DNA of 64,000 nt, taken from positions 19,223,354-19,287,353 of the forward strand of contig NC_045142.1 of NCBI RefSeq assembly GCF_008831285.2, read 5' to 3'. The position numbers and the translations under genes are program-made. The notes beneath the pieces were generated by a model. It was given only the letters and a program-made list of their open reading frames with translations. It was not told the origin of the DNA and searched no databases. Below are positions 1,577 through 34,290 of the stretch, piece by piece (within the stretch, counting starts at the first letter, position 1; the number at the start of each line of letters is the position of its first letter). The stretch comes from Nymphaea colorata (taxonomy: Eukaryota; Streptophyta; Magnoliopsida; Nymphaeales; Nymphaeaceae).

Positions 1577-3300
1577 TGCTTTTTTAGTCTTCCTCCTCTC
1601 ATTGTGGAGATACAATGTCTCAACATTAATCATACACTGGAAGTTTGAAAGCATGCATCACCCAATTAAGCACCAAAAACCTTCATGGGAGTCATGCAGC
1701 AACAACTTGGTATAAATTAGGCTTAGACTACATAACTACATTATCTGGCATGAAACTGTGAAAGCTGAAAAGATCACGCAACCCAATAAACAGACTAAGA
1801 ATCATTTTCTGAAAGCAAATTCTTAGCATCCATTTAGTGCATATTCCACACTATGCTTTTCTGTTTAAACTTTAGCTTTAAGTGAACTTGGATGAACAAT
1901 CATTTTCTTGAAAACAGAATGGCTCATGATGACATAACGCATACATATACATAAGAGCATAAGAGCTCAGAAGCACATAACCACATAGATAATTTGACCC
2001 AGACATGCATCCAAATTCATAAAGCATCATACGGTAGTAATACAATATTTAAAATAAAAAAATCACTAGACGTGTATGCCTGATCAGAATGACCTCAGGA
2101 GTCAAATAAGCTACTTTTCTGATGCTTTTAATTTCTACAGCATGCATTTGAACGTTAATTAGCACACTATGCTGCCTGTCTCTGATGAAAGGTATTTTTC
2201 TTACAAAATACATATTCAACAAAAAGATTCAGTAAAAAGTAAAGTTCAGCCTTCAAGCCAAATGAAACTAACAAAATGGAACAATTACCTAACCAAAGAG
2301 AACTTAGGGAACTTGAACTAAAAACAGAGAGAAAATAACCACAAGCAATGTGAAGGAAAGAGAACATCAAAAGTCAAGAAATCAGTTTCTTTTATCTGAA
2401 ACGTCTCCCTTAGATAATTCAACCGAGAAAGCAGAATCCTGAAAATGCAGATGCAAAAAGGGCCCTTAACATGGAATGCAACAACCTTAAGTCTTAGCCA
2501 CTACTACTCCACTTAGTCCAAAGTATCACAGAGAAAAACAAAAAGAAAATATTAGCCATTTTCACATTAATATAACAAGGTTAAAACTTAAGCATGTTGA
2601 ATACATGAAGGGGCTAGCCTTGACTTCCTAATACGCTCTATGGGGAAAACACTTTACAGACCAACCTGCTTTGTGAATCTGAAATGGAATCCCAAATATG
2701 ATTATAAGCCTCCCAAAGTGAACAAAATCGATACCATCCTTATCTTTTTTCCATCGACAGACATCGTAACAGTGATGCGCCGATGGGCGATGGTTGCCGG
2801 TGAAAGAGAAAAGGGATCAATACCTTCTTTATTTTTTCCATCGGAAGCCATCGTAAACAGTGACGGGCCCATGGGCAATGGCTGCTGGTGGAATAGAAAA
2901 GGGAGCACGAGGCGGCGAGAGACTCTTCGCAGTTCGTCTACCGCCTACCCCTCATCAGAGAGAGAAAGAGGGAATTTAAGAGAGATACCTGATGCTTCAC
3001 GGAGTGACGACCGACCGGGGATGCTAGAGGAGTCACTGGAGCTGCTAAGCTAAGGACGCCAAACTGGAGGTCGACCGTCAGAGACTCGGGAGCAGCGGCA
3101 GTCAGGGACAACGGGAGTGATGGACTCGAAAGAGGTTGGAGCGACGGGGCGTTTGAGTTCCCGCCGTCAACCCGATGAGTCTTTTTTTCTTTTTAATTTT
3201 TTTTTACTAATTTGAAAATCAGTTTAGTATTAAAAAACGAGTCGATACGAACCAGAAAATCACAACAATTAGAACCATTCGACCGAGTTCAGGGAACTCA
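1577..3300. other. Non-coding interval upstream of the aprataxin gene
   Basis: I recognise no gene. The sequence is AT-rich to about 2.7 kb and then GC-richer to 3.2 kb. An open frame at 2640-3053 (+) has no motif and runs through a local tandem duplication, so I do not call it a gene. The GC-rich part may be a promoter or 5' leader, possibly of a neighbour to the left, but no signal proves that. Confidence 0.4.
2724..2910. repeat. Diverged ~88-bp tandem duplication
   Basis: Two adjacent copies share TTTTTTCCATCG, CATCGTAA, CAGTGA, CGATGG/CCATGG, GCAATGG-like and GAAAAGGGA blocks in the same order. The T-runs start at about 2745 and 2832. The copies differ at many positions, so the duplication is old. 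Confidence 0.7.
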
Positions 3301-3313
3301 AACTCGACGCGGC

Positions 3314-3323
3314 TATATAAATA
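3314..3323 (+). promoter_or_regulatory. Probable TATA box of the aprataxin gene
   Basis: TATATAAATA lies about 270 bp upstream of the proposed start codon at 3595. A transcript starting about 30 bp downstream would have a leader of roughly 250 nt. No experimental support is available from sequence. Confidence 0.5.
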
Positions 3324-3594
3324 AGTCGAGTCATGAACAATGACCCGGCTCGAGCTCTAGTCCAAGCTTGACGAGTCAAGGTTGAGCGTCGTTCCGGCAT
3401 TCTTTTCGGCTCTTTCATTTTTCCCCACTCTCTCTTCCGATCTGGTTCAACTATCCGGGGCCGCAGTATTTTAGCACATCCATGAGATGAATCAAGTGTG
3501 GCGTAAGCGTCGGCCTTGTGCATTGGCTGAAAGAGCCCCAGCCATAATCGCGGTGTGGTTGGCTGCACGGATGTTTGTTTAGACCTTGCCCATA

Positions 3595-6500
3595 ATGGCT
3601 GCAGAGCAATCCGGCGTTTGGCAAGGTTGGTCATGGAATGCCTTCTCGTGCATCTTCTTGATGTTCGCGTTTATGGCCTGCCATTCCGTTCTTTCTTTAT
3701 CATTTTGGTAATTGATGGGGAAGAGATTCTGCAGGAAATTGTGAGGGTGGCAAACCCATCGTCCTGATCCTAGTGGGAGCTCCCGGTAGCGGGAAGTCTA
3801 CCTTCTGCAATAACGTCATGAAGGGTGCTTTGAGGCAATGGGTTCGCGTCTGTCAGGTAAGTACATCCCCTTTTTCTTATTTTTCCTTGTTGCCCATGGT
3901 GGGATTTGGCGGCTCTTCCGACAGGTGGATTTGATCATCTTTATGTTTGTGGGTTTTTCTTGAACTTTCGTGTTTGATGGATTTTGTTGGGTTTTGTTTG
4001 TGGTTAAATGTTTGTTCTTTCATTGAACACTTGAATTCGAGGTCTGCCGTTTCTGCAGAGGCCCAGAGGTTTTATTTCTTTATTGGGCTATCGTCTCTGA
4101 TCGATTTTGGTGTGCTTTCCAAGCTAAGCAGTTGCCCAGTTAGTGGATTAGATGAGGAATAACTATTCTTTGTTCAGAGATGCTACGTGCTACTTATTGA
4201 CCATATGTCCCGAGTTGATGGTGAACTACTAGTTTTTTACTTTATATTGCTGATTGGAACATGCCTGTTGTACGAAAAGCCGTTTACAGTTTTTCCACAA
4301 TATTTTTAAGCAACCTGAGTTTTTTTCCCCAAGCTGTGGATTTAATGGGTCAACTTCATGCGAGCATGCCAATTTCATGGATGTACTATCATCTTTAGAA
4401 CTCCGTGTCCATCATATTTGGCTTCAACAAATTATTGTGGAACTTGGCTGATAGACATGAGTGGCTGATATGGGCTAATAATACATGTGTGGAGACTAAA
4501 AAGGTCTCAAGGATGAAAGTAATGTGCCAAGTCTATCATACGATGCTCTAGCCACTTGTTTCAAAGTCAAACTGTAGAGAGCTTTATTGATCTTACAAAT
4601 ATGATGTGGCTTGGTTTGATCTAGAAAGTCTACTGGTTTTTATGATGAAACTGCCTCTTGGAGACATCCACATAAGAAGGTTGTTTAACACCGAGTTGAT
4701 GAATATCCCAATTATAATGTAGAGCAAGAGACAACATAATTCCACCGACAGTGGGCTTAACAATGGATGAGAAAAGTTCAACAAAGTCAATTTCAAGTAT
4801 TCTATCAAACAATTAGGCAACTAATATAGTTTTTGTCTTTCAAGAGAGCCATTGCTCTTCAATTTTATTTTTAAAAACTCATTTACTTCCGCATGGTTCA
4901 TCTCTTTAGTATGGGGAACCGAAAAGCTAAGGATTGTTAATTGGAAGGGTCTCACTCATAGTGTTGACCCATCCAATGTGTGAAAGAGCAACCTTAAGAG
5001 CCTGTGGTTCACTAGGAATGGAGGGTACCATAAGGGATTGGGCTTAGCAATTCTGGCCTTAAATTAGTCCTATTGACCATGTAATCCATATTCAAACCAG
5101 TACGCACATTTTTCTATAATAGACCCTTCAGTAGTATCTTCATTAATATTTTGACTTGCATCATGCATTTGGTTAGCTTCCTTTGTTGGTCATCAACTCA
5201 TCATAATCATTTTTGCTGATTTGATGATGAGATACTTGAACTGATTTAAGTGTAGGTTCACTAGTCATAAGATGGTTGGAAACATAGTGATTTGCCTTAA
5301 TCATATTACTTAGCCATGATATAATTCACTGTACCAGTGTCCATGAACCATGCCTGATCTGTTCCTCCTGAAACTCTCATAGTGGCCAAAACTTTTGCAA
5401 TATCGTCAGCTTGAAAGGCTTGACTAAAATGGTAACAGTATAAGGTGTTGGTATGTTCCTCCCCTTACAGGGATTCTGATTCTGCTGCTTTTAGTTTCCT
5501 TGTCTTTGATATGATCCATTCTGATTATTTTTGTCATTGTTATCAGCTTGAGTAAAAAAATCACAACCAGTAGAATTAAATTGTTCTCTGTGATTGTTGA
5601 ATCTGAATTTTTGGTTTCTCTCCCACTAAGCAATGAGGGAAATGTTATAAATGACGCACATTAGCAGAATATAATGACCTCATAGTCTCATGGCTTTGGG
5701 GTAAGGCTACGACTGCTTTGTGACTGGGTTTGGTGGTTTCAGCATTGTTGTTACAATACCTCATATCCACTTTTGTGACCATTTGAGATCTATGTCACAC
5801 AAACTCTTCAAAAAAGGAGTTGCACCAGTGTCGACACGAGGCTGGTGCTGGTGCTGATATGGGTGCAGCTCCAACACACACCGCAACTGCATCATTTCTT
5901 ATGCATGTTCAAAATATTTTCTATTTATTTTTTTTTCTTCTCTCTGTCCTTTTTTTATGTACTGTAATAAAAGTAAAAAGAAAGGACAGATTAAGCTAAG
6001 AAACAAACTAAAATTATATACATTATGAATACATATATATATATGTATATATAATAAATGTATTATATACATACACCTCGCTGCACCCTCGCACTGTGCC
6101 GGCACCTGCATCTGCACCCGCGCCCTGCACTCATGTGACATAGTTTGAGATCAAAATGCTTTGTTATGATGAGTAACTGGTTGTGGGTAGGGGGTCGACC
6201 TCCTTGCTGTTGGGTAAGGAATCTGCCCCTTTTGCCTGCACCCACGTCTTGCAGGTTACCTCCACGCATGATAACCGACTGTCTGGCAGCTAACGGCACC
6301 AATGGAGGTCAGGGTAGCATAGGAAAAGGTACCCAAGGCGTCAATGCTTCTTCACATGGTCCCTAGGAATAGGATAGTCGATGTTGAACACTATGAACAA
6401 CAAAAGAAAGGCGTTTTTTTGGCTATTTCACCTGTCATCGGTAAGATGATTTGAATCTCCAGTTGAAGCTGCTCACTTCCAGCATTGGGCATACCTCTCC

Positions 6501-18500: not shown

Positions 18501-20903
18501 CATGTTCACACCCACACCCATGTTGTGTCGAAGATGATGCCAAACTCTATGCTACATTTTATAGGTGATGCATGTGTCAAACTGATATGTTCTTTATTTT
18601 ATGTCAAGGTACCAGGAACATAATGTAACATCCCAAGTATCCAATGGCAGACTGTCTTCTCTTTGAAGCAGTGCAATATAAACCTAAATTTCATGTGCTC
18701 AAGTTGCTAGACTAGAGTATCTCTTAATTCTTTCAGGTTGTATGTTTTGAGCAGGACTTGTTGAAGCCGTAGTCACAACTATTGTTTTCACATTTTAAAT
18801 GGTGAGGTTTTTCTCGGGTATAATATGCCAAGTTTGAAAAAAAGACGAGAAAGTACAGTAAATTAAAAAAATATATAAAAAATCTTAAAAATTAGGGAAA
18901 AATAAAATAAATGAGAAACTAATAAGACAACATAAAAAAATAAGTATTTAAATAACAAATAAAAATTAGGAAATAGAAACAAAGTAGTTTGGTGTTAAAA
19001 TAACCTGAAAAAATGTCTAAAATGGAAAAAAGGGGAAAAATGCGAAGTAAACACCTTTTTTTTGCGTGTTCTTTTACCTTTTTTTTTTGGCCGACCTATT
19101 TTTCACGTTTTTAATGTTTTTAAAAAAGTGTGTTTTTTGCGACTATAGTTGAAGCTAGTTGGTGCTTCTGTTGTATCCTTCCATCAGGCAATATTGAACG
19201 AAGAAAACACTGAGAATCTACTGCGGCACTTCTGCTCTCTACCCATCCGAAGACTGTTTGATTTTAATTTTTAATGAATAACAACACAAATGAAAAATAG
19301 CGCAATGTGAATATTTGTCATTGAAGCTGTATTGACAGTTTTCCCTGCATGGTTGTAATATTGTTGGTTTATCATGCAATGTAAAAATGTTTTTGTAAAA
19401 CAAGGTTCTCATGTTTGCATTCTTTCTGGCACATCATCCTAGTATGTTACTTTCTTGGTTCGCAGGCGCTTGAAACCTGGTGGAGGTGGGGTTAATGCTG
19501 CCATATTTAATGCTGCTGGTGAAGATTTTGAGCGTGCAACCAAGAGTCAGGCTCAAACCCTGAATCCTGGGAATGCTGTTGCTGTACCTCTACCTGCAGA
19601 TTCCCTTCTCTTTAGAAGAGAAGGCATCAGTCATGTCATTCATGTCCTTGGGCCAAATATGAACCCAAATAGGCCAAACTATCTTGGAAAGGACTATGTG
19701 AAAGGATGTGATGTTCTTCGAAGAGCTTACTCATCTCTTTTTTGTTCTTTTGCATCTATTGCTCAGACTGCTAAGTTACCAGTGGAGCACAGTCAGAAAT
19801 GTATCACAGGACCAATAGGAGAAAACCATATTCAGGAAAATCTCAATGATCACTCCATAAAGGATGCAGAACAGAAAGTCAAAAGGGAGGGACTAAGAGA
19901 ACTAGATACTGAAAGTAACAAGAAGTGCAAAGGAGAGTCTCCTGTACTTCCTAAAGGTGACTTGTCCCATAGTTCTTTTGGTTGCAAACGTTATAGCACT
20001 GGTTCTTCTGTAGATGGACCACTTGAGGATATGCCTGCACGTGCAGAGACAAATGTTGAAAGGAAGGAAAAGAGCATTAATGAGTATAACAAGTCATGGG
20101 CTTCATGGGCACAATGCCTATATCACATTGCTATGCATCCTGATGAGCACAGAGAGGAAGTTATTGAACTATCGGAGTCCACTGTCACGATTTACGATCT
20201 ATACCCTAAGGTACTTCTTACCTTCAGTTGAAAAGAAGCATCCTTATTTCATTGTGTAGCCCGTAAGTGCTTTCTTGTATTGCCTATCATGCAGGCAAAA
20301 AAGCACTTGCTGATAGTTGCTAGACTGCATGGACTGGATAGCCTTGCTGATGTGTGCAAAGAGCACATTCAATTGTTAAAAGAAATGCAATCCGTGGGGC
20401 TGAGGTGGGTGAAGAAATTTACATCTGAAGATCCATCAACTGGGTTCAGGCTTGGATATCATTCGGTATTATCACTTAGCAACTAGACTGGGGGCTATAA
20501 TTTTCTGCAATGCTGAATAGTTTCAGAGATATTATAGTTGTCCATATTTGTGGTTTTGATTCAGGTCCCTTCGATGCGTCAGCTGCATCTTCATGTCATC
20601 AGCCAGGACTTTGAGTCTACATATTTAAAACACAAGAAGCATTGGAACTCCTTCAACACTCCGTTCTTCCGTGACTCGGTTGATGTGATTGAGGAATTAG
20701 AAAACCATGGTAAGGTCAGCATCAAGGAAGAGAGCTTCTTATCTATGGAATTACGTTGTCACAGGTGCCGAAGTGCACATCCTAATATCCCCCATCTCAA
20801 GTGCCATATCCAAAAGTGCAGTGCATCCTTCCCTGCAAGTCTGTTAACTCATGGGCGACTATACTATACGCTTCCCCAAAATTTAGGAAGTGATGGAGTA
20901 TGA
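3595..20903 (+). CDS. APTX: Plant aprataxin-type DNA repair protein (kinase-like + macro + HIT + zinc finger), six coding exons
   Basis: The CDS joins 3595-3625, 3735-3856, 16169-17100, 19466-20210, 20295-20465 and 20565-20903, giving 779 residues with every intron GT..AG and in phase. Residues 25-32 are a Walker A motif, GAPGSGKS, heading a polynucleotide-kinase-like domain. A macro (ADP-ribose-binding) domain starts near 325 and includes NVIANAANW and the PGGGGVNAAI loop at the exon 3/4 junction. The HIT core RQLHLHVISQDF is at 672-683 and the zinc finger has C732, C735, H748 and C752. Known aprataxins remove AMP from abortive DNA-ligation 5' ends in the nucleus; the plant orthologue is often annotated bHLH140. 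The first position of the HxHxH triad is Gln here. Exon 1 (MAAEQSGVWQ) is my choice from splice-phase fit and is the least certain part. Intron 2 is about 12.3 kb and full of transposons. Confidence 0.88.
3857..5780 (+). other. Left part of the giant aprataxin intron 2
   Basis: The intron starts with GTAAGT at 3857. Open frames here carry no recognisable motif. I see no coding sequence or identifiable element up to the miniature transposon at 5790. Confidence 0.6.
5790..6143. mobile_element. Miniature inverted-repeat element, CTATGTCACA family (copy 1)
   Basis: The left end is CTATGTCACA and the right end TGTGACATAG, a perfect 10-bp inverted repeat. It is flanked by the 8-bp direct repeat TTTGAGAT at 5782-5789 and 6144-6151 (a 9-bp reading is possible because of an adjacent C). 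GC-rich blocks with GGTGCTGGTGCTG on the left and GCACCTGCATCTGCACC on the right form longer subterminal inverted repeats around an AT-rich centre. It has no coding capacity. The 8-bp duplication suggests a hAT-mobilised, non-autonomous element. Confidence 0.85.
6152..7524 (+). other. Intron sequence, no gene seen
   Basis: AT-rich intronic DNA. Around 7090-7220 there are A-runs separated by ACGCG and ATACGTATTATACCCG, possibly the edge of another small decayed element. Positions 7430-7520 are GC-rich and contain CGACGGGAGTCGCCGGAGGC, which recurs at about 7875-7894 on the other side of the next miniature element. Confidence 0.45.
7525..7872. mobile_element. Miniature inverted-repeat element with GGTACG subterminal repeats (copy 2)
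   Basis: The left end reads TTGTCACATGGGTGCGGGTA followed by GGGTACGGGTAT, and the right end contains GCCGTACCCGTACCCGTGTC and terminates TGTGTCACACAG. The flanks are ATCGACAG (7517-7524) and ATCGACGG (7873-7880), an 8-bp duplication with one mismatch. The centre is AT-rich and non-coding. The ends resemble the element at 5790-6143 and the solo end at 11115-11217, so these look like one hAT-type family. Caution: the flanks lie in a locally duplicated sequence, which could imitate a target duplication. Confidence 0.65.
8300..10740 (+). pseudogene. Decayed hAT-family transposase (BED finger, DUF659-like core, hAT dimerisation domain)
   Basis: Pieces of a hAT transposase lie in order on the + strand. 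A BED-type finger starts VCNFCGEQYAG at 8357 and continues to a histidine-containing helix. A DUF659/RNase-H-like part begins TDNGSNYKKAK (9064) and includes CAAHCIDLMLEDI. A segment RNPIHATTAFLSPHLFW follows at 9670. Then come WWEMFGS and IAIKIL just before 10077, and the C-terminal dimerisation motif SASACERNWSAFDAANTKKR after 10500. Stops and frame changes (for example around 8610, 8900-9060 and 9640) make it non-functional. The stretch between 10077 and 10493 is a separate element inserted between two halves of the dimerisation domain. It lies inside aprataxin intron 2, in the same orientation. Confidence 0.88.
10077..10493. mobile_element. CGTATCG-family miniature element nested in the hAT transposase (copy 2)
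   Basis: The ends are CAATGTTGTA on the left and TACAACACTG on the right, an inverted repeat with one mismatch and close to the ends of the 831-1568 element. The right half holds about five tandem copies of a 20-bp palindromic unit containing GTATCGTACGATACGGCCCC (about 10387-10485). The element separates the WWEMFGS/IAIKIL and CERNWSAFD parts of the transposase, so it inserted after that gene arrived. I do not see a matching 8-bp duplication (TTTTAAGC left, CATGCAGT right), so the flanks have changed since insertion. Confidence 0.78.
11115..11217. mobile_element. Solo end of a CTATGTCACA/GGTACG-family element
   Basis: Read on the - strand this starts CTATGTCACATGGGTGCGGG, continues with GGTACGG repeats and GGGTATGGCGG, and includes GTGGGTACGCGGGTACG. 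This matches the left ~100 bp of the element at 7525 over most of its length. No partner end is visible close by. It may be a truncated miniature element, or the right terminus of a larger hAT element whose transposase is the 8.3-10.7 kb pseudogene and whose left terminus is at 7525. Confidence 0.6.
11218..16168 (+). other. Right part of aprataxin intron 2: non-coding, transposon-like and low-complexity DNA
   Basis: No gene is supported over these 5 kb. Positions 12060-12700 are unusually rich in ATGCAT/CATATG words. GACTCA/GAGTCAAC-type words cluster at 11525-11585 and 15440-15660 (for example TTGACTTGGTGAGTTTTAGG at the right), suggesting two pieces of one old repeat split by a later insertion. 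Small open frames at 13443, 14344 and 14786 show no family motif. The intron ends TTATCCTTCAG before 16169. Confidence 0.45.
12060..12720. repeat. ATGCAT/CATATG-rich low-complexity tract
   Basis: This stretch is dominated by overlapping words such as ATGCATG, CATATG, ATATGCATG and GATGATG, without a fixed repeat period that I can define by eye. It is not coding. Such tracts often belong to large retrotransposon non-coding regions, but I cannot assign it. Confidence 0.4.
17101..18012 (+). other. Aprataxin intron 3, left part
   Basis: This intron sequence begins GTCAGTTT after exon 3. The short open frames have no motif. I see no identifiable element before the putative miniature element at 18013. 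Confidence 0.5.
18013..18532. mobile_element. Possible third CTATGTCACA-family miniature element
   Basis: The left end is CTATGTCTCGTGGGTGCGAG followed by GTGCAGGTGCGGATACGGGT. The right end contains TTCACACCCACACCCATGTT and ends GTGTCGAAG, roughly the inverse. Between them lie an AT-rich part and a GAGAGA-rich tract at 18320-18440. I find no matching target duplication, so this is a family-resemblance call only. Confidence 0.45.
18533..19465 (+). other. Aprataxin intron 3, right part
   Basis: AT-rich intron. Positions 18800-19145 carry A-runs with GGTTTTTCTCGGGTATAATA on the left and TTTTTTGCGTGTTC / GTGTGTTTTTTGCGACTATA on the right, possibly one more decayed small element. The intron closes at TTGGTTCGCAG before 19466. 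Confidence 0.4.
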
Positions 20904-20930
20904 TAGCTACATCTGCTGCTTCTTTTTATG

Positions 20931-21404
20931 TAAAGAATGTTTGCAATTATGAGAGAGAGAGAGTGAGAGTGTGTGTGTGTCTTAGCTATATATGCAACTC
21001 TACAACAATTTTGTTTGCAACCATAAAATGTATGTGGAGAGAGAGAGAGAGATGAATATGTTAGCTATATATGCAACTCTAGAATAATTTTGTTCTACTG
21101 AATTTTACAGTCGAAAAATGTATGTGGGGAGAGAGCTAGATGGGAATAATGTATTAAAGTCTAGAGGTTGACGGCAGCATTGGTAGGATCGTATGGGGAG
21201 GAGGAAGGTGGTCAAGTGAGATTCTATATAATTGTATTTAGGGGAACTTGGCGGTGGGAAGCAACAAAATGTGATAGACAATCCAATCTAAATTCTTTTT
21301 AGGTAAAGAATGTTTGCAATCATGAGAGAGAGAAAGAGTGTGTGTGTGTGTGTTAGCTATATATGCAACTCTACAACAATTTTGTTTGCAACTATAAAAT
21401 GTAT

Positions 21405-21450
<46 letters not shown>

Positions 21451-22354
21451 TGTGTGTGTTAGCTATGTATGAGCATCTACAACATTTTTGTTTGTAGTTA
21501 TGAAATGTATGCGGAGACAGAGATAGGGATTAGAGAGAGAGAGAGTACGTTAGCTATATATGCAACTCTGGAACAATTTTGTTCAATTGAATTTTACAAT
21601 CGAAAAATGTACGTGGGTTGTTGCATTGAACTATTTAACTGTTAAATGTATGTGGGGAGAGAGAGCTAGATGGGAAGAATGTATTAAAGTCTAGAGGTTG
21701 ACTGCAGCATAGGTAGGATCGTATGGGGAGGAGGAAGGCGGTCAAGTGAGATTTTATGTAGTTGTATTTAGGGGAAGTTGGCGGAGGGAAGCAGCAAAAT
21801 GTGATAGGCAATCTAATCTAAATTCTTTTCAGGTAAAGAATGTTTGCAATTATGAGAGAGAGAGTGTGTGTTAGCTATAAATGCAACTCTACGACGATTT
21901 TGTTTGCAACTATAAAATGTATGTAGAGAGAGAGAGAGAGTGTGTGTGTGTGTGTGAGCTATATATGAAAATTTACAACATTTTTGTTTGCAGTTATGAA
22001 ATGTATGTAGAGACAGAGATGGGGATTAGTTTGAGAGAGAGAGAGAGAGGAGTATGTTAGCTATATATGCAACTCTGGAACAATTTTGTTCTACCGAATT
22101 TTACAATAAAAAAATGTATGTGGGTTGTTGCACTGAAGTATGTAATTGTTAAATGTATGTGGGCAGAGAGCTAGATGGGAAGAATGTATTAAAGTCTAGC
22201 GGTTGACCGCAACATAGGTAAGATCATATGGGGAGGAGGAAGGCAGTCAAGTAAGATTCTATATAATTGTATTTAGGGGAAGTTGGCACTGGGAAGCAAC
22301 AAAATGTGATGGGCAATCCAATCGAAATTCGTTTTAGGTAAAGAATGTTTGCAA

Positions 22355-22401
<47 letters not shown>

Positions 22402-22875
22402 AGCTATGTATGTAACTCTACAACAATTTTGTTTGCAACTATAAAATGTATGTAGAGAGAGAGAGAGAGAGAGAGAGAAAGTGTGTGTTAGATATATATG
22501 AAAATTTACAACTTTTTTTGTTTGCAGTTATGAAATGTATGTGGAGAGAGATAGGGATTAGATTGAGAGAGAAAGGGAGAGGGAGAGAGAGATGATTATC
22601 TTAGCTATATATGCAACTCTAGAACAATTTTGTTGTACTGAATTTTACAATAAAAAAATGTATGTGGGTTGTTGCACCGAACCATTTAACTGTTAAATGT
22701 ATGTGGGGAGAGAGCTAGATGGGAATAATGTATTAAAGTCTAGAGGTTGACTGCAGCATAGGTAGGAATATGGGGAGGAGGAAAGCAGTCAAGTGAGATT
22801 CTATAAAATTATATTTAGGAGAAGTTGGCGGTGGGAAGCAGCAAAATGTGATAGGCAATCTAATCTAAATTCTCT
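20931..22875 (+). repeat. Four tandem copies of a 0.37-0.54 kb unit derived from the aprataxin 3' UTR
   Basis: Copies start at TAAAGAATGTTTGCAAT at about 20931, 21304, 21834 and 22339. Each proceeds through a GA or GT microsatellite, TTAGCTATATATGCAACTCT, AACAATTTTGTTTGCAACTA, ATGTATGTGGGGAGAGAG, TATTAAAGTCTAGAGGTTGA and GGGGAGGAGGAA to AATCTAAATTCTTTT. The first copy begins about 28 bp after the aprataxin stop codon, so the array includes or grew from the 3' UTR. Length differences come from variable GA/GT tracts and lost internal pieces. No coding frame runs through it. Confidence 0.85.
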
Positions 22876-23157: not shown

Positions 23158-23162
23158 CCAAG

Positions 23163-25234
23163 TGGTGGGGAGTCCCTGGCTGAGGTGCTGCCGAGGCCCC
23201 GCCGAGGGTCGCCCGACCGTTCCCCCAGATCACGCGGACGGTGGGTGGCAGCGGAGGGGAAACCCGCCTTGCGGAGGGGACAACCTCCCTCGAGCGCTGG
23301 GACGGGTGCGGGGAGCGCGTCGGCTCCTGGAGTCCGCCGAGGTCGTTCGAAGACGAAGTGAGGCTAATGTGGGGACGAGGCGTCGGCGGCAGGCGGGGGG
23401 GTAACCAACCTTGCGCTGGGAGGCGGACGGTCGGGTGCGAGGGACGCCTTGTGGCCGCCCGAGGTACCACGAAAGCCTGGGGAGGTTAACGATGGGTTCT
23501 ACGTCGGGGAGCGACGGAGGCGAGCTGGCTGCTGTCCTACCGTGGAGATATGCGTGCCGTGGGGAGGGTGCGCCTTGCCATCGGGGAGGGCTGGTCCGGC
23601 TGTGGCCGGGGCTGGCTCGTTGAATTGTTCTTCGACCGGAGAGCATGTCGACGGTAGGGAGGCCCTTGGAGGGGCCGGTCTGCCGAAGGGGGCCGGTGTG
23701 GATGGAGTAGCCGAGTAGGGCCTACACACGGACAAGTCCGGTGTTGACCTCACCCCTTCACCGCAAAGAACCACGTCACGGTGGCTTGTCCGTGTTTGTG
23801 GAGGAAGAGAGAACCACGCCCAACCTTCACAAGGGACCAAGGAATCTACTGCTAGCAACGAAGAACCACGTCGAAGCTAGGAGGCGAGAAATGTACCTTG
23901 ATACCGAAGAACCACGTCAATACCAAAGAGGCCTTCCTTACGTCGAGACCTTGACAACAAAGGCCGAAGACCAAGGGTGCTGCTACGCAGCTCTACACTA
24001 CTATCTACTATAAACTACTTTGATATTTTTCTTCTTCCATATCCAAAACAAAACACAACCCACCTATTTATACTAGCTGAAGTGGATCCGGGGCAAAAAC
24101 GGCCGTTGGACCCGACCCGAGCGACGTGAGTCGCTGAGGCGGGCGGCGCAGGCGGTGAATGGCCGAGCTGGGCGGTGGCGCGTGGATCCCTTCCCTGTCG
24201 TGTAGCCTTGGACAAGATCCCTCAGGATCTCGCGCACTTGAGTGCGGAATCCGGGTGGGATGTCGCTCCTCGGCGGGCGCGTGACGCCTTGCGTGCGGCG
24301 GTGGACAAAATCACTCGGTCGGATGCACACTCGAGTGCGGAATCTCCTAGCTGAGCGCGGGTCTGGCCTTGGCGCGGGCCGCGTGCGCTTGCGTGTGGTG
24401 CCGGCGGGATCTCCTCGGGAAGGCGCGAGATCCTGGTCGGCCTTCGCCGTGAGCCTTTCCGATTGCGTGTGGCGCTGGGGGAATCTTCCTAGGGAAGGCG
24501 CGTACTCGAGTGTACGATATTCCCTCGGTGTCGGTTGTTCCCCTTGCTTCGCTTGCTCCCCTTGCGTGGGGTTCCGGACAACCTTCCCTGGTTGTGTGTT
24601 GGCGCTGGTGCGTGCTTCGGAGCTTCCTATTGTGCGTGAGCCACCGTGCGGATGGCGTCCTTTCTGGGTCAACACCAGGTGCTAGTGGGTCGGTGGTCTG
24701 GGTGCTAACCGACCCCTCCCTACCCGAACTTTCTAGAGGTTCGGATCCACTGTAGGCAAGCTGGGCGGCCACCAAAGTTCCTCGGGCGGCCCGTTCTAGC
24801 CTGTATGGTATGGGCATGGCTCGACAGGTGCGGCGTGCAGCTCGACGCCAATTAGGGCCTGATTTAGGCATGTCGGGTCTAGTCCGCCGACAACCTCACT
24901 TTGATTGGCCTCTCGCCGACGGGGTCGCCTGGGCTTGAGTTTGGCCCGGACCCTTTGGTGCTCGGCTGCTGGCCTCGTGATGTCTACTTCAGTCGGCACA
25001 TCTTTTTTTTGGGCGGACAGGCCGTCAACGTCTCTAGCTTGTTCGAGTAGGTGTAATGCTGTACCGCCCTTAATCCTGCCTCGACCCTTTCGTCTGGGCC
25101 GATCCCGTCGGTCTGCGGTCCATGCCTAATACCGCCTGGGCTGAAGTCATCTCCGCCCAGCTGGGGAGCGGTTAGGCCAGCCGCTGGTCCTCCGTCTGCT
25201 GGCATCTGGCTCGACAGAAGGTGGGGTCGTATCA
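23163..25234 (-). repeat. LTR 1 (3' LTR of the tandem element)
   Basis: This 2072-bp LTR lies at the 3' end of the element as read on the - strand. It is GC-rich outside a short AT-rich core near 24010-24075 that holds the promoter. Its many long open frames follow from GC richness and overlap each other, so I do not call them genes. It is very similar to LTR 2 and LTR 3 but differs by scattered substitutions and small indels, and it lacks about 25 bp present in the other two near 24170. Confidence 0.9.
24065..24072 (-). promoter_or_regulatory. LTR 1 TATA box
   Basis: TATAAATA on the - strand, in the AT-rich core of the LTR, followed downstream by a CAAAACAAAAC-type leader (on the complementary strand). 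The same box occurs at the matching place in the other LTRs. Its orientation agrees with the primer-binding site and polypurine tract. Confidence 0.65.
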
Positions 25235-25247
25235 GTCCACCCCCCTT
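25235..25247 (-). promoter_or_regulatory. Polypurine tract, internal region A
   Basis: On the - strand AAGGGGGGTGGAC directly precedes the LTR start TGATACGACC. The second unit has the weakened form AAGGGAGATGGAC at 28647-28659. Confidence 0.8.
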
Positions 25248-25513: not shown

Positions 25514-26504
25514 CTACTTGTGAGCAAGCTCCTCCTTGGCTACCTGGGCTAGATCTTCTAGTCGAGGCAGTTGCTCAGGTTTCGGGGTGAGTGACACTTC
25601 CATCTCCCAATTGCTACATGGGTAGATCTGGTCCTGCCGCTGCATCTCTTCCTTGAATGTCTCTAGGAAGGACTTGTCCGGCACGGGGGGCATGTTTCTC
25701 TGCGAGGGCTGCAGGCGTCGGAGTACGTCTGGCAGGTTCTGTCGATGAAGCAGTTGTCCGGCAAGTAGGGGTAGTGGGTGGGTCCCCACCCGTTGCTGTC
25801 CCTTGCTTGCCGGGCGGCGCTGGCCGACTCTTGAGGGAAGGTGGCGGCAACCGTCCTTCCTCTGGATGTCGTCGGAAGGGTGCTGAAACAGCGGTTTGGG
25901 GGTTCCCGAGTTCCTTCCTGGACACGGTCGGCGTTGGGCCAGGGTGCTTCGGTGGCCCAGTAGTAGTCGTACCTCAGATTTTCGATGTGGATAGGTTCTC
26001 CTGGTTCGACCGTGGCGTATTGCCATGGCTTGATGATCTTTCTGGAGTCTCCTAACCATCCATTGTAGGAGACGTTTTTGAGGTACATGATGTGGTGTAG
26101 CGGGTCCCAGCACAACTGGAAATGGAAGTCCTCGATACCGGGTCCTTGGATGCGTATCTTGCAGTCCCGGTGCGTTCCTCCCAGTGCTAGGGGCCACGGA
26201 ACATCGCCGTCCATGGGCAGCCCCTTCCAAAGGACTCACTTAAACAGGTATTGATCCTCATCATATGCTGGAGGACCACCCATATTGGGACGGATGGTGG
26301 AAGTGGCATCTGCTCCTCCTTGGGTGAGTTCGGATGCCGGTGGCATACCCCGTAGGGTGAGCATCTTTCATCTCCGCTGACATAGGTCCTGTCGGTTCCA
26401 CTAGAAGAGCATCCTTCCGTGTCATATTCACTGGATGCCCTGGAGGTTTCGGGGGTCAAGACCGAGCTGTTGTTGCTCCTCGGAGATCGGAGCATTTTGG
26501 CCAT
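25514..26504 (-). pseudogene. Internal-region protein A of the LTR element, with an FHA-like domain; frames broken
   Basis: Coding traces run along the - strand in three frames. From 26504 a Ser/Thr-rich segment starts MAKMLRSPRSNN and contains SSVLTPETSR, EYDTEGCSSS and TDRTYVSGDE. A second frame, preceded by an in-frame TGA at 26236-26238, is open from 26235 to 25663. It contains DCKIRIQGPGIEDFHFQL, MYLKNVSYNGWLGD and EPGEPIHIENLRYDYYW. This order matches the forkhead-associated fold: a GR-like start, S/I-x-x-H, then S-x-N-G, then a G-E/D-x-I strand. A third frame ends with KSFLETFKEEMQRQDQIY and LPRLEDLAQVAKEELAH before the stop at 25514. It occupies the gag position but shows no CCHC knuckle or enzyme motif. 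The FHA assignment is mine by eye; an unrelated capsid-like protein remains possible. Confidence 0.55.
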
Positions 26505-26530: not shown

Positions 26531-26543
26531 GGCTCTGATACCA
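26531..26543 (-). promoter_or_regulatory. Primer-binding site, internal region A
   Basis: On the - strand this reads TGGTATCAGAGCC, complementary to the 3' end of plant initiator methionine tRNA, four bases inside the LTR. It sets the element's orientation. Confidence 0.9.
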
Positions 26544-26547
26544 CCAT

Positions 26548-28646
26548 TGGTGGGGAGTCCCTGGCCGAGGTGCTGCCGAAGCCCCGCCGAGGGTCGCCCG
26601 ACCGTTCCCCCGGATCACACGGACGGTGGGTAGCGGTGGAGGGGACAACCTCCCTCGACGCGGACTGGTGCGGGGAGCGCGTCGGCTCCTGGAGTCCGCC
26701 GAGGTCGTCCGAAGACGGAGTGAGGCTAATGTCGGGACGAGGCGTCGGCGGCAGGCGGGGGGGGGGGGGGGGCGGGGGGCGGATGGGGTAACCTCCCTTG
26801 CGCTGGGAGGCGGACGGTCGGGTGCGAGGGATGCCTTGCGACCTCCCGAGGTACCATGAAAGCCCCGAGAGGTTAACGCTGGGTCCTACGTTGGGGAGTG
26901 ACGGAGGCGAGCTGGCTGTTGTCCTACTGCGGAGATAGGCGCGCCGTGGGGAGGGTGAGCCTTGCCGTCAGGGAGGGCTGGTCCAGCTGTGGCTGGGGCT
27001 GGCTCGTTGAATTGTTCTTCGGCCAGGGAGTGTGCCGACGGTAGGGAGGCCTTTGGAGGGTCCGGTCTGCCGAAGGGGGCCGGTGTGGATGGAGTAGCTG
27101 AGTAGGGCCTACACATGGACAAGTCCAGTGTTGACCTCACCCCTTCACCGCAAAGAACCACGTTACGGTGGCTTGTCCGCGTTTGTCGAGGAAGAGAGAA
27201 CCATGCCCAACCTCCATAAGAGACCAAGGAATCTACGGCTAGCGACGAAGAACCACGTCGAAGCTAGGAGGCGAGAAAGGTACTTTGATACCGAAAAGCC
27301 ACGTCAATACCAAAGAGGCATTCATTACGTCGAAACCTTGACAACAAAGGCCGAAGCCCAAGGGTGCTGCTACGCATCTCTACACTATTATCTACTATAA
27401 ACTACTTTAATATTTTTCTTCTTCGATATCCAAAACAAAATACAAAACACTTATTTATACTAGCCGAAGTGGATTCAGGGCAAAAACGGCCGTTGAACCC
27501 GACCCGAGCGACGTGAGTGGCTGAGGCGGGCGGCGCGGGCGGTGAATGGCCAAGCTGGGTGGTGGCGTGGGCTAGGATTGGCCGAACGAGCGGTGGCGCG
27601 TGGATCCTTTCCCTGCCGTGTAGCCTTGGACAAGATCCCTCGGGATCTCGCGCAATTGAGTGTAGAATTTGAGCGAGATGTCACTCCTCGGCGGGCGCGT
27701 GATGCCTTGCGTGCGGCAGTGGACAAAATCACTCGGTCGGATGCGCACTCGAGTGCGGAATCTCCTGGCTTAGCGCGGGTCTGGCCTTGGCGCGAGCCGC
27801 GTGCGCTTGCGTGTGCTGCCGACGGGATCTCCTCGGGAAGGTACGAGATTCTGGTCGACCTTCGCCGTGAGCCTTTCCGGTTGCGTGTGGCGCTGGGGGA
27901 TCTTCCTAGGGAAGGCACGTACTCGAGTGTACAATATTCCCTCGGTGTCGGTCGTTCCCCTTGCCTCTTTTGCTCCCCCTGCGTGGGGTTCCGGACAACC
28001 TTCCCTGGTTTTGTGATGGTGCGTGCTCTGGAGCTTCCTATTGTGTGGGAGCCTCCGTGCAGATGGCGTCCTTTCCGCGTCAACACCAGGTGCTAGTGGG
28101 TCAGTGGTCTGGGTGCTGACCGACCCCTCCCTACCCGAACCTTCTACAGGTTCGGATCGGCTGTAGGCAAGCTGGGCGGCCACCAAAGTTCATCGGGCGG
28201 CCCGTTCTGGCATGTATGGTATGGGCATGGCTCGGCAGGTGCAGCGTGCAGCTCGACGCCAGCTAGGTCCTGATTGAGGCATGTCGGGTCTAGTCTGCCG
28301 ACAACCTCACTTTGATTGGCCTCTCGCCGACGGGGTCGCCTGGGCTTGAGTTTGGCCCGGACCCTTTGGTGCTCGACAGCTGGCCTCGTGATGTCTGCTT
28401 CAGCCGGCACATCTTTTTTTTGGGCGGACAGGCCGTCAACCTCTCTAGCTTGTTCGGGTAGGTGTAATGTTGTACCGCCCTTAATCTTGCCTCGACCCTT
28501 TCGTCTGGGCCAATCCTGTCGGTCTGCGGTCCATCGCCTAATACCGCCTGGGCTTAAGTCATCTCCGCCCAGCTGGGGAGCGGTTAGGCCAGCCGCTGGT
28601 CCTCCGTCTGCTGGCATCTGGCTCGGCACAAGGTGGGGTCGTATCA
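26548..28646 (-). repeat. LTR 2 (shared middle LTR)
   Basis: This 2.1-kb LTR serves as the 3' LTR of the upstream unit and the 5' LTR of the downstream unit. It contains an exceptional run of 16 G residues at about 26757-26772, followed by C and six more G. The corresponding positions of LTR 1 and LTR 3 have only 7 and 4 G. Confidence 0.9.
27452..27459 (-). promoter_or_regulatory. LTR 2 TATA box
   Basis: TATAAATA on the - strand at the position homologous to the LTR 1 box. Confidence 0.65.
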
Positions 28647-28926
28647 GTCCATCTCCCTTATCAAGAGCTTGTCCCCAAGCTCTTGGCTCCTCTTCCCGTA
28701 GGCGGCCTAATCCTTCTGACGTCGGGTCGTAGGCCTCCGGGCTTTCGGGAGGGGTGTCCAACCAGTCGCTTCCGGGTAGGAATATCTTTCGGAGTCCCCG
28801 CCGGTAGGTTTGGGTGGTCTGGTCTTCCTCTTCCGACTGTGGTGGGCCAACCTCGAAGGCAATGGAAGTCCTCCATTGCTCATGTAGGACTGCGAGGACC
28901 GGTATATTTTGTGGCCGCTCTAGCTC

Positions 28927-29932
28927 CTACTTGTGAGCAAGCTCCTCCTCGGCTACCTGGGCTAAATCTTCTAGTCGAGGCAGTTGCTCAGGTTGCGGGG
29001 TGAGTGGCGCTTCCATCTCCCAGTTGCTACACGGGTAGATCTGGTCCTGCCGCTGCATCTCTTCCTTGAATGTCTCTAGGAATGACTTTTTCGGCCCGAG
29101 GGGCCTGTTTCTCTGCGAGGGCTGGCCGTGCGGGTGACGGTAGGGCTGCAGGCGTCGGAGTACGTCTGGCAGGTCCCGTCGATGAAGCAGTTATCCGGCA
29201 AGTAGGGGTAGTGGGTGGGTCCCCACCCGTTGTTGTCTCTTGCTTGTCGGGCGGCGCTGGCCGACTCTTGAGGGAAGGTGGCAGCAACCGTCCGTCCTCT
29301 GGATGTCGTCGGAAGGGTGCTGACACAGTGGTTTGAGGGTTCCCGAGTTCATTCCCGGACACGGTCGGCGTTGGGCTAGGGTGCTTCGGTGGCCCAGTAG
29401 TAGTCGTACCTCAGATTTCCGACGTGGATAGGTTCTCCTGGTTCGGCCGTGGCGTATTGCCATGACTTGATGATCGTTTCAGAGTCTCCTAACCATCCAT
29501 TGTAGGAGACGTTTTTAAGGTACATGATGTGGTGTAGCGGGTCCCAGCACAACTGGAAATGGAAGTCCTCGATACCTGGTCCTTGGATGCGTATCTTACA
29601 GTCCCGGTGCATTCCTCCCAGTAATAGGGGCCACGGAGCATCGCCGTTCGTGGGCAGCCCCTTCCAAAGGACTCACTTAAACAGCTATTGGTCCCCATCG
29701 TATGCTGGAGGACCACCCATATTGGGACGGATGGTGGAAGTGGCGTCTGCTACTCCTTCGGTGAGTTCGGACGCTGGTGGCATACCCCGTATGGTGAGCA
29801 TCCTTCATCTCCGCTGACATAGGTCCTGCCGGTTCCGCTAGAGGAGCATCCTTTCGTGTCATATTCACTAGATGCCCTGAAGGTTTCGGGGGTCAAGACC
29901 GAGCTGTTGTCGCTTCTAGGAGATCGGAGCAT
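28927..29932 (-). pseudogene. Internal-region protein B of the LTR element (second copy)
   Basis: This is homologous to the 25514-26504 copy. The first Met codon has become ACG, so the N-terminal frame begins MLRSPRSDNSSVLTPET at 29932. The FHA-like part (29612-29376) keeps DCKIRIQGPGIEDFHFQL and VSYNGWLGD, with changes such as SETIIKSW and IHVGNLRYDYYW. The same in-frame TGA is present (29673-29675). About 20 extra bases lie near 29125-29145 compared with copy A. The C-terminal frame retains KSFLETFKEEMQRQDQIY and LPRLEDLAQVAEEELAH. Conservation of the peptide with scattered substitutions suggests an ancestor that coded for it, but neither copy is intact. Confidence 0.55.
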
Positions 29933-29967: not shown

Positions 29968-29980
29968 GGCTCTGATACCA
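29968..29980 (-). promoter_or_regulatory. Primer-binding site, internal region B
   Basis: On the - strand this reads TGGTATCAGAGCC, intact, again four bases from the 5' LTR. Confidence 0.9.
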
Positions 29981-29984
29981 CTAT

Positions 29985-32087
29985 TGGTGGGGAGTCCCCG
30001 GCCGAGGTGCTGCCGAAGCCCCGCCGAGGGTCACCCGACCATTCCCCCAGATCACGCGGACGGTGGGTAGCGGCGGGGGGGGGAACCCGCCTTGCGGAGG
30101 GGACAACCTCCCTCAAGCGCGGACGGGTGCGGGGAGCGCGTCGGCTCCTGGAGTCCGCCGAGGTCGTCCGAAGACGGAGTGAGGCTAATGTGGGCACGAG
30201 GCATCGGCGGCAGGCGGCGGGGTAACCTCCCTTGCGTTGGGAGGCGGACAGTCTGGTGTGAGGGACTTCTTGCGGCCACCTGAGGTACAACGAAAGCCCG
30301 AGGAGGTTAACGCTGGGTCCTATGTCGGGGAGTGACGGAGGCGAGCTGGTTGTTGTCCTACAGCGGAGATAGGCGCGTCGTGGGGGGGGTGCGCCTTGCC
30401 GTCGGGGAGGGCTGGTCCGGCTATGGCCGGGGCTGGCTGGTTGAATTGTTCTTCGGCCGAGGAGCGTGCCGACGATAGGGAATCCCTTGGAGGGGCCGGT
30501 CTGCCGAAGGGGGCCGGTGTGGATTGAGTAGCCGAGTAGGGCGTACACACGAACAAGTCCGGTGTTGACCTCACCCCTTCACCACAAAGAACCACGTCAC
30601 GGTGGCTTGTCCGCGTTTGTGGAGGAAGAAAGAACCACGCCCAACCTTCACAAGGGACCAAGGAATCTACGGCTAGCAACGAAGAGCCACGTGGAAGCTA
30701 GGAGGCAAGAAAGGTACCTTGATACCGAAGAACCACGTCAATACCAAAGAGGTCTTCCTTATGTCTTGACCTTGACAACAAAGGCTGAAGCCCAAGGGTG
30801 CTGTTACGCAGCTCTACACTACTATCTACTATAAACTACTTTGATATTTTTCTTCTTCGATATCCAAAACAAAACACAAAACACCTATTTATACTAGTCG
30901 AAGTGGATTCAGGGCAAAAACGGCCGTTGGACCCGACCCGAGCAACGTGAGTGGATGAGGCGGGCGGCACGGGCGGTGAATGGCCGAGCTTGGCGGTGGC
31001 GCGGGCTAGGATTGGCCGAACGAGCGGTGGCGCGTGGATCCCTTCCCTGCCGTGTAGCCTTGAACAAGATCCCTCGGGATCTCACGCACTTGAGTGCGGA
31101 ATCCGGGCGGGATGCCGCTCCTTGGCGGGCACATGGCGCCTTGCGTACGGCGGTGGACAAAATCGCTCGGTCGGATGCGCACTCGAGTGCGGAATCTCCT
31201 AGTTGAGCGCGGGTCTAGCCTTGGTGCGGGCCCCGTGGGATTTCGTGTGGTGCCGGCGGGATCTCCTCGGGAAGGCGCGAGATCCTGGTCGGCCTTCGCT
31301 GTGAGCCTTTCCGGTTGCGTGTGGCGCTGGGGGAATCTTCCTAGGGAAGGCGCGTACTCGAGTGTACGATATTCCCTTGGTGTCGGTCGTTCCCCTTGCT
31401 TCGCTTGCTCCCTTTGCGTGGTATTCCGGACAACCTTCCTTGGTTGTGTGCTGGCGCTGTTGCGTGCTCTGGAGCTTCCTGTTGTGCGGGAGCCACCGTG
31501 TGGATGGCATCCTTTCCGGGTCAACACTAGGTGCTAGTGGGTCGGTGGTCTGGGTGCTGACCGACCCCTCCCTACCCGAACCTTCTAGAGGTTCGGATCG
31601 ACTGTAGGCAAGCTGGGCGGCCACCAAAGTTCCTCGGGCGGCCCGTTCTGGCCTATATGGTATGGGCATGGCTCGGCAGGTGCGGCGTGCAGCTCGACGC
31701 CAATTAGGGCCTGATTGAGGCATGTTGGGTCTAGTCCGCCGACAGTCTCACTTTGATTGGCCTCTCACCGACGGGGTCGCCTGGGCTTGAGTTTGGCCCG
31801 GACCCTTTGGTGCTCAGCTGCTGGCCTCGTGATGTCTGCTTCAGCCGGCACGTCTTCTTTTGGGGCGGACAGGCCGTCAACCTCCCTAGCTTGTTCGGGT
31901 AGGTGTAATGCTGTACCGCCCTTAATCCTGCCTCGACCCTTTCATCTGGGTTGATCCCGTCGTTCTGCGGTCCATCGCCTAATACCGCCTGGGCTGAAGT
32001 CATCTCCGCCCAGCCGGGGAGCGGTTAGGCCAGCCGTTGGTCCTCCGTCTGCCGGCACATGGCTCGGCACAAGGTGGGGTCATATCA
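29985..32087 (-). repeat. LTR 3 (5' LTR of the tandem element)
   Basis: This 2.1-kb LTR, at the high-coordinate edge, is the 5' LTR on the - strand. Its outer boundary ATATCA is followed by CTAAG, the degraded partner of the CCAAG target duplication at the other edge. Confidence 0.9.
30886..30893 (-). promoter_or_regulatory. LTR 3 TATA box (promoter of the full-length element)
   Basis: TATAAATA on the - strand. As LTR 3 is the 5' LTR, this box would drive the genomic RNA. Confidence 0.65.
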
Positions 32088-32800
32088 CTAAGTTTTAGGA
32101 AACTTGCCCTCCCTCGCTTTTTTCATATAAAAAATAGGTTTTCAGTGAGCAGGAGCATCTGGTGGTGGTGTCTTGTCCAACGGCATGGGTATTCTATCCA
32201 ACGGCATGGGCTCAAAGGTTTTGGTGTTGCTTTGTAGAAGCATGGTCAGAAACGGGTGCATCTTATCGCAATCAGTAGGGGAAAATTGCTAGGCATTTGT
32301 TCTTATGTTCACTTGCAAGTCCGTCAATCGATTTCTGCTATTTATACAAATCAGCCCTTCATTGTGAAGCCATTGCAAGGGATTGAAGCAGAAACAAAGG
32401 TGGTTGTTGCAGGTAATCCCCCTTTTCAATTCAGTCCCTCTTTTTTGTGGTAGATAGGAATGTCGTTCTACAACTTACTTCAGTCCCCCTATTTTTGCTT
32501 TATATTTTCATGTCTTCTCTGCATTCTTGGATAATATGCTTGAGCTATGCAATCTTTAGTGTCATGGCCCAAAACACGATGAAATTAACAGTATTGGTCT
32601 TTTCTTTTCCCCTTCATTTTTAGGGGATCTGACACACGCCACAAGTGTCAGAGTTCTTTAGTCAAGAGGTACTCCAGAATCTCCTCCTTTTCTCCTCTGG
32701 AGGAGTAAATTTCTATCAATGCTTTCGTATTGTTTCCTTTGCCTTTATAATTCTATTGTTGATTTCACTATTTTCATTCTACATTAGCTTATTTCTTGTT
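32088..32800. other. Unassigned sequence right of the LTR element
   Basis: An open frame at 32256-32453 (+) includes VRQSISAIYTNQPFIVKPLQ and is followed at AGCAGAAACA..GTTGCAG by GTAATC, which could be a splice donor. I do not recognise it. The remainder is pyrimidine-rich and non-coding. Confidence 0.3.
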
Positions 32801-32814
32801 CACAAATAGAGTAT

Positions 32815-33447
32815 GTGCCTTAGCCTTGTTGGATTTTTCGAAATCTTCCTTGTTGCCACCTCTCTTCTGTTCGAATATAGTTCTTGATGATTGTCTCTAT
32901 ATGCTCTGCCTTTTTAGTCAGACCATAAAAATTCTCATATTCATGTTGTATGAGGTGGTGATGGATGTGCTCTCCCAAGAATTATGGTTAAGACATGCTC
33001 TTCTGGCATTGGAGTGCGAAGTTTTAAGCTCGATATCCACCACCTCTGAATATACTCACAAGCTGTCTCTCCTAACTCCTGACAGAGATTAAGGGTGTCG
33101 ATGGTCGGCACCATAAAAAGATTTGGCTCATACTTTTCGATGAAAGCATTGAGTACCTCATTGTAATATCACATTTTGGTGGGATCAATGGTTCTTAAGT
33201 ACCATTGTGCTGCCTTGCCTTCCAAATTTCGAGGAAAATAGATTAATAATGGCTTGTTATTATTGCAAAAGCTCTCAAATTTAGCAAAGAATATTGACAA
33301 ATGAGTATGCAGGTTTTTGTCCCCTGAGCTTGCTGAATTTTCTTGGAAGTTCCTCGACAACTTCATCATCAAGCACCTCACAAAAATCTCATCTGAAATA
33401 TGTCTTCTTGCCCTTGCTTTTGAATCCGATGGGACTGCTCTCTCCAT
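32815..33447 (-). pseudogene. Ty3/gypsy-type gag remnant
   Basis: The - strand reads as a retrotransposon gag. It contains FFAKFESFCNNNKPLLIYFP and LEGKAAQWYLRTIDPTKM, then a TGA, then YYNEVLNAFIEKYEPNLF, QELGETACEYIQRWW and, after a frameshift, GEHIHHHLIQHEYENFYGL and RTEERWQQGRF. The order (capsid-like core with AxxWY, E-x-YIQRW, pmPEE) fits plant gypsy gag. One stop and one frameshift show it is dead. No zinc knuckle or pol follows; the element is truncated towards 32.8 kb. Confidence 0.75.
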
Positions 33448-34290
33448 TTCATCAATGCAAGACTGAATAAGATATACAATGCACCCAGTGGAGACCTTAA
33501 GTTCCTAGATTTGAGTGGAGCATTCTGAAATCTTGTAACATGGCCTAACTATTGCTCCTTGATTCATCGTTTGCTAAATCACCTTTTGAATGGCTAGCAT
33601 AAAGGTGAGACCTACCTGATGTAGATTCTCCACCTCCTTTTGAACTTTAAACTCTTTTCCTTTTTCAGCTTGTAATCTCGTGCAAGGAGTCATAGAAAAT
33701 CTTTTTCAAATTTATACACTCTAGACCTAGCTGATTCCTCATATAAAGAAAGATCAATCCTAAGACCACCACTTAATAACCAAACTGCAGATGCCCTGCC
33801 ATTTTTTACTGTCCATATCAAAATCCATGACTGTATTGAAGTCTCCTCTAATTGTATGGAAATCCATCTACCTCTTGGAGAACTTTGTAATGCAGCATTC
33901 TAGATGAAACAAAAAAAAGAATTGGCCAAGTATAAGAATGTTTGTCCTCTTGTTGTGCTAGATGTAGAGGACTAGCTGCTCATTCCTTTAGAAAATGTCT
34001 CATACAAATACACTCCTCGTCTAGCTTATTTATCATTTGTTTGTAATGCATGTAATGACAAGAAGTTGTCTCCGGTGTGCCTCAAAGCTCAACCATCTTG
34101 AACAACATGCCTGTAAAACCACTCTTGTAGAAACCAAAGGTAGCCCTCGATCGTGTCAGAATCTCCAATGCCGAATCGGGTAAGACCCCTATAGAGAAAT
34201 GCAAGACCATCCAAAGCAAGTGAAGGGGTGTTGAGTCTTGATCTTTCCCCACATCCTAAATAGCTCTAAAACGTGTAGATCCATCATATT

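Follow-up and report, generated by a model that had tools for sequence, protein, structure and literature searches.

The 64,000-nucleotide stretch of the Nymphaea colorata genome analysed here (contig NC_045142.1, positions 19,223,354 to 19,287,353 of the forward strand; hereafter the window) carries on its minus strand a tandem array of long terminal repeat (LTR) retrotransposon sequences, with two internal regions, A and B, that each encode a protein segment homologous to the FHA domain (PF00498). The window copies belong to a large, diversified and partly recent LTR retrotransposon group of this genome, recent members of which have intact open reading frames (ORFs) that begin with this domain. 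We consider it likely that the array is a non-autonomous LTR retrotransposon, mobilised in trans, in the form of a decayed tandem, and that the FHA-led ORF of its group encodes an adaptor protein with a degenerate binding pocket. The FHA domain is a module usual in cell-signalling and DNA-repair proteins. The reading frames and domains in the two window copies are as follows.

25663..26235, minus strand: copy A reading frame (190 aa) containing the FHA-like domain
25984..26178, minus strand: copy A FHA-like domain, residues 20–84, Pfam model positions 4–66 of 67
29376..29672, minus strand: copy B reading frame (98 aa) containing the FHA-like domain
29418..29615, minus strand: copy B FHA-like domain, residues 20–85, Pfam model positions 4–67 of 67

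The copies are 89% identical across 98 residues, and both frames are bounded by stops, some of which are common to the two. An initial annotation of this DNA had proposed a phosphothreonine-binding, FHA-like domain in a non-autonomous LTR element, with the same order of motifs in both copies, and three of the four motifs it quoted are indeed found exactly in A and B; the fourth, EPGEPIHIENLRYDYYW, matches exactly only in copy A, as copy B has EPGEPIHVGNLRYDYYW instead.

The proposed FHA homology is borne out by Pfam, by a profile search of PDB sequences, and by fold comparison of a low-confidence model. FHA is the sole family returned from the Pfam-A library (24,736 models) for copy A (E 0.0016, 19.3 bits) and for copy B (E 0.0044, 17.9 bits), and a 118-aa piece of copy A scores 20.7 bits, which is exactly the curated FHA cut-off; as controls, the first 98 residues of copy A were reversed once and shuffled nine times, and none of the ten resulting sequences gave FHA in Pfam-A, with one shuffle matching the unrelated TdIF1_2nd weakly (E 0.16). 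In an alignment of 25 family members that includes both window copies, Pfam matches FHA in 24 at E ≤ 0.1, and in 20 it also lists Yop-YscD_cpl, which we take to be a family of the FHA fold. Among the related loci described below, the FHA score is above 20.7 bits in L034, L035, L036, L040, and L041 and below it in L037, L038, and L039, and two ORFs of L044 had no FHA match in the Pfam scan. A profile built from the 25 rows finds FHA chains among PDB sequences. The fold search proposed with the initial annotation also lists FHA chains, although the model behind it is of low confidence and the agreement is correspondingly qualified. It is hardly credible that a beta-rich stretch resembles FHA by chance here, and we have rejected this explanation: the window scores (17.9–20.7 bits) do lie at or slightly under the cut-off, PDB searches with the window protein alone (no FHA chain, two unrelated weak matches) or with a two-row window profile (nothing found) do not reach FHA, and a single-sequence model of the window protein (pLDDT, the predicted local distance difference test, 45.9) is too poor for use; however, the family-wide matches, the FHA chains reached by the 25-row profile and the fold searches, and the negative controls all speak for homology. 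Other weak Pfam matches (ASPP2-like, PMD, XET_C, DivIC, PAZ_3, and others) were taken as chance. In searches for the window protein elsewhere, IMG/VR gave two pattern matches, neither of them confirmed, PHROGs and NCBIfam gave nothing, and the one plasmid match was insignificant (E 4).

The array has the order LTR-internal-LTR-internal-LTR, and all three LTRs have TG..CA ends. Its parts are listed here.

29985..32087, minus strand: LTR 1, upstream-most in the element orientation, 2,103 bp, starting TGATATGACC and ending CCCCACCA
26548..28646, minus strand: LTR 2, the middle one, 2,099 bp, TGATACGACC to CCCCACCA
23163..25234, minus strand: LTR 3, 2,072 bp, TGATACGACC to CCCCACCA
29970..29980, minus strand: primer binding site (PBS) TGGTATCAGAG of internal region B
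26533..26543, minus strand: PBS TGGTATCAGAG of internal region A
28652..28659, minus strand: polypurine tract (PPT) AAGGGAGA before LTR 2, directly after GAGCTTGGGGACAAGCTC
25240..25247, minus strand: PPT AAGGGGGG before LTR 3, directly after GAGCTTGGGGACAAGCTC
32088..32092, minus strand: CTTAG, half of a probable 5-bp target site duplication, with four of five bases as in the other flank
23158..23162, minus strand: CTTGG, the other half of the probable duplication

Both internal regions measure about 1.3 kb. The PBS sits four bases past the LTR in each, and we take its sequence to be the complement of the 3′ end of the initiator methionine tRNA. The hallmarks of an LTR retrotransposon are all present, namely the TG..CA ends, PBS, PPT, and target site duplication, the last of these seen in the window only and in four of five bases. 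Because the outer flanks match to this extent, the array probably grew from a single insertion. The insertion is old and decaying, as judged from Kimura two-parameter distances of 0.078–0.098 among the three LTRs and 0.067 between the two internal regions.

The anatomy of the wider group was examined in twelve related loci (L034 to L045) of 9–9.4 kb each, several of which stop within an LTR and thus give partial LTR lengths. The PBS string TGGTATCAGAG is present in 11 of the 12, GGGGACAAGC, the core that precedes the window purine tract, in seven, and pairs of direct repeats in all but L044. Identity in the best piece of these repeats is 99.8% in L034, 99.7% in L040, 99.0% in L038, 98.9% in L037, 96.8% in L036, 95.3% in L041, 94.8% in L035, 90.4% in L043, 84.0% in L042, and 79.1% in L045, and 95.8% in L039, across 407 bases only. 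The internal region is 2.6–3.7 kb long in eight of 11 loci. In six of them (L034, L035, L036, L037, L038, and L040) it is filled by a single FHA-led ORF of 658–916 aa, and in 6/11 loci no other long sense ORF lies between PBS and PPT, an interval that gag-pol normally occupies; both the non-autonomous LTR element and the placement of the protein where gag usually lies, as initially annotated, hold up on this anatomy. The ORF starts 0.6–1.0 kb downstream of the PBS (seven ORFs examined), is broken up into two frames of 423 and 384 aa in L041, and is missing as a long frame from L042 and L045. A motif RAWGQA lies near the C-terminal end in five of seven relatives' ORFs and in both window copies, and AHDRG is found in three of the seven. 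Subfamilies share 16–28% identity with the window copy, and about 44 of 150 family matches lie in stop-free frames of at least 600 aa. The best-kept members have one main ORF of about 650–900 aa between the PBS and the purine tract. Its product is predicted to open with a domain of the FHA fold, from which a long charged linker, containing no known domain, leads to a short C-terminal motif that recurs among members.

Two further features of these loci may be recorded. The leaders of several FHA elements contain a tandem PBS-like sequence, TGGTATCA, in two or three copies spaced by about 90–160 bp (L037 at 3547 and 3707; L039, on the reverse strand, at 1326, 1473, and 1620; L045 at 2553, 2699, and 2846; L044 at 3788 and 3875), and an inverted GATACCA often directly precedes the later copies. 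The 867-aa ORF of L036 contains a tandem duplication of 255 bp (85 codons) with 99% identity, at positions 2928–3437.

No gag, protease, reverse transcriptase (RT), RNase H, or integrase family was found by Pfam in six pieces of the window array or in 20 ORFs selected from 11 of the related loci (all but L043). Neither the window pieces nor these ORFs contain a capsid or zinc-knuckle family, a CCHC motif occurs in none of seven relatives' ORFs, and a six-ORF profile did not find a capsid in the PDB. The placement of the segment in a gag or capsid family, which had been named as the outcome that would speak against an FHA domain, was not obtained, and Pfam returns FHA instead. The gag and pol of an autonomous element are absent from the scanned pieces and ORFs, and the well-bounded loci have no room for pol. 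It is rather unlikely that the ORF encodes a gag that has diverged strongly, with an FHA-like matrix and an unrecognised capsid, and that the elements are ordinary terminal-repeat retrotransposons with a GAG domain (TR-GAG): it is the main ORF, lies in the gag position, and has, in six loci, a length of 658–916 aa and a charged composition, and a divergent capsid could escape sequence comparison, but the searches above found no trace of one and the FHA similarity would remain unexplained. Doubtful, although deserving more weight, is the alternative that autonomous elements with FHA and gag-pol exist in this genome and that the short ones are deletion derivatives that keep an accessory ORF. The PBS, PPT, and LTR-start signals held in common suggest a single lineage, the internal regions of L039, L044, and L045 are 4.9–7.6 kb by loosely set bounds, so that pol could fit, and one family match (C321, positions 3284–3625) lies in an open frame of 3,917 aa. 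This frame, however, may merely span masked N, as open frames in L034 and L038 do, and a recognised pol domain is found in none of the 20 scanned ORFs.

There are signs of purifying selection on the FHA frame across the family. The Nei-Gojobori method was applied to the FHA columns; of 300 pairs, 43 were kept (synonymous divergence, dS, 0.03–0.9) and 257 dropped. The ratio of non-synonymous to synonymous divergence (dN/dS) has a median of 0.40 and a range of 0.23–0.97, values that are biased downward by the prior choice of stop-free rows and come from non-independent pairs. Selection on the translated frame, which the initial annotation had made a test of its proposal, is thus apparent in the wider family but fails between the window copies, whose ratio of 0.97 is the highest of the range and which differ by four synonymous and 13 non-synonymous changes, with no overall constraint; codons 22–64 differ between them by synonymous changes only (post hoc tests, p about 0.006 and 0.013). 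In four pairs of full ORFs, the ratio of the proportions of non-synonymous and synonymous differences (pN/pS) is 0.34–0.48 in the first 125 columns and 0.45–0.73 in later segments, although one of these pairs, L035/L040, shows no real difference between the two. Plant LTR elements are well known to capture genes, and the broken window copies, which drift neutrally, would suit the passive pick-up of a host FHA gene fragment (transduplication) as an ORF without function. We regard this as improbable, because a dead passenger is not expected to remain open, and here the FHA domain is retained across subfamilies at 16–28% identity to the window copy, some 44 of 150 matches remain in long stop-free frames, and the family dN/dS is about 0.4.

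In the reading we prefer, an autonomous element would mobilise the FHA-bearing element in trans. The FHA protein would be an adaptor: by binding a host or helper protein, it may help the element's own RNA to be packaged, to be targeted, or to escape silencing. An adaptor role seems likelier to us than that of a structural gag, since proteins use FHA domains for interaction and the searches detected neither a capsid nor a zinc knuckle. Several observations weigh against this interpretation, including the marginal FHA scores and window-only PDB results, the neutral drift and high dN/dS of the broken window copies, the longer internal regions, the common signals and the 3,917-aa frame that could point to deletion derivatives, the gag-like position, size, and charge of an ORF in which a capsid might go unseen, and the 500–800 residues that follow the FHA domain without a recognised domain. 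More tentatively, and as a possibility we would put below even chances, this plant LTR group may have had its only protein replaced by, or built around, an FHA domain that serves as a modular hook on host or helper proteins, possibly phospho-regulated where the GR arginine is kept, and may live without its own gag and pol; if true, such a lifestyle would add to retrotransposon parasitism a new strategy that does not depend on gag.

The FHA fold is described in excerpts of PMC4238996 as a beta-sandwich of 11 strands with conserved blocks GR, SxxH, and NG. The family resembles the FHA domain (PF00498) in its profile, PDB-sequence, and fold matches and in the order of its blocks (G, C-D-L, H-P-S-I..H, N-x-T/S-x-N/T-G, P-G-E-x-I-x-V-G), but differs in being borne by an LTR retrotransposon and in its pocket. 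In the 25-row alignment the glycine of GR is retained in 23 members and the arginine in eight (six G-R and two V-R), the serine of SxxH in none and its histidine in all 25, and the asparagine of NG in four and its glycine in 24, so that the canonical signature is missing although the profile match is kept. Structural FHA residues are retained and phosphate-contacting residues mostly lost. The description of GG in place of GR is not upheld, as in the alignment copy A reads G20-T21 and copy B reads G20-M21, with threonine or methionine at the arginine position; of the replacement of the SxxH serine by I or E, the loss of the serine stands, with E35 at its position. These substitutions make canonical phosphothreonine binding by the window copies unlikely, and the initial label of a phosphothreonine-binding domain is doubtful for the family too, in which the serine is missing throughout and the arginine mostly so. 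Since the predicted pocket is degenerate, binding in most subfamilies is probably independent of phosphothreonine or of changed specificity, and the GR-keeping subfamilies might bind phosphothreonine.

Elsewhere in the internal regions there are three stretches without a Pfam family.

26280..26504, minus strand: Ser-rich stretch of copy A, upstream of its FHA stretch and in another frame
25517..25684, minus strand: charged C-terminal stretch conserved between copies, in another frame of copy A
28648..28926, minus strand: open stretch of copy B up to the purine tract, containing RAWGQA

Outside the array, positions 20920–22873 hold four degenerate direct repeats spaced by about 500 bp and rich in GA and GT runs. 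Minus-strand frames at 32941–33504 seem to us to resemble a diverged Ty3-type gag fragment, although Pfam finds no gag there, and a plus-strand frame at 19443–20231 may be akin to an exon of a macro-domain/aprataxin-like plant gene.

Non-autonomous LTR elements are usually regarded as coding-empty or gag-only, and here a conserved, partly recently amplified group has a main protein that starts with a domain of signalling type. Should this protein bind host or helper proteins, it would give direct access to the question of how non-autonomous elements compete to be mobilised. Transposons of this kind may also inflate the FHA gene counts of plant genomes. No description of an FHA-bearing LTR element was found among the titles and abstracts that searches of the open-access literature returned; such repeats may already have been catalogued without the FHA domain being noticed, as subscription papers and repeat libraries lie outside the scope of that search. 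The bdelloid rotifer LTR elements with additional ORFs, as portrayed in parts of PMC5408684, likewise carry a further protein, but theirs is added to conserved ORFs, whereas gag and pol are unrecognised beside the FHA ORF. As excerpts of PMC6022998 describe them, the TR-GAG elements of plants share with the present group the LTRs, PBS, PPT, and one main ORF without recognised RT or integrase; they differ in that a GAG domain is unrecognised here and an FHA domain opens the ORF. The same excerpts define large retrotransposon derivatives (LARDs) as longer than 2 kb and lacking gag and pol domains, which these elements resemble, but the conserved FHA ORFs of up to 916 aa, with an FHA dN/dS of about 0.4, set them apart. 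A classifier of the kind outlined there would probably file the FHA elements as LARDs and miss the protein that they encode.
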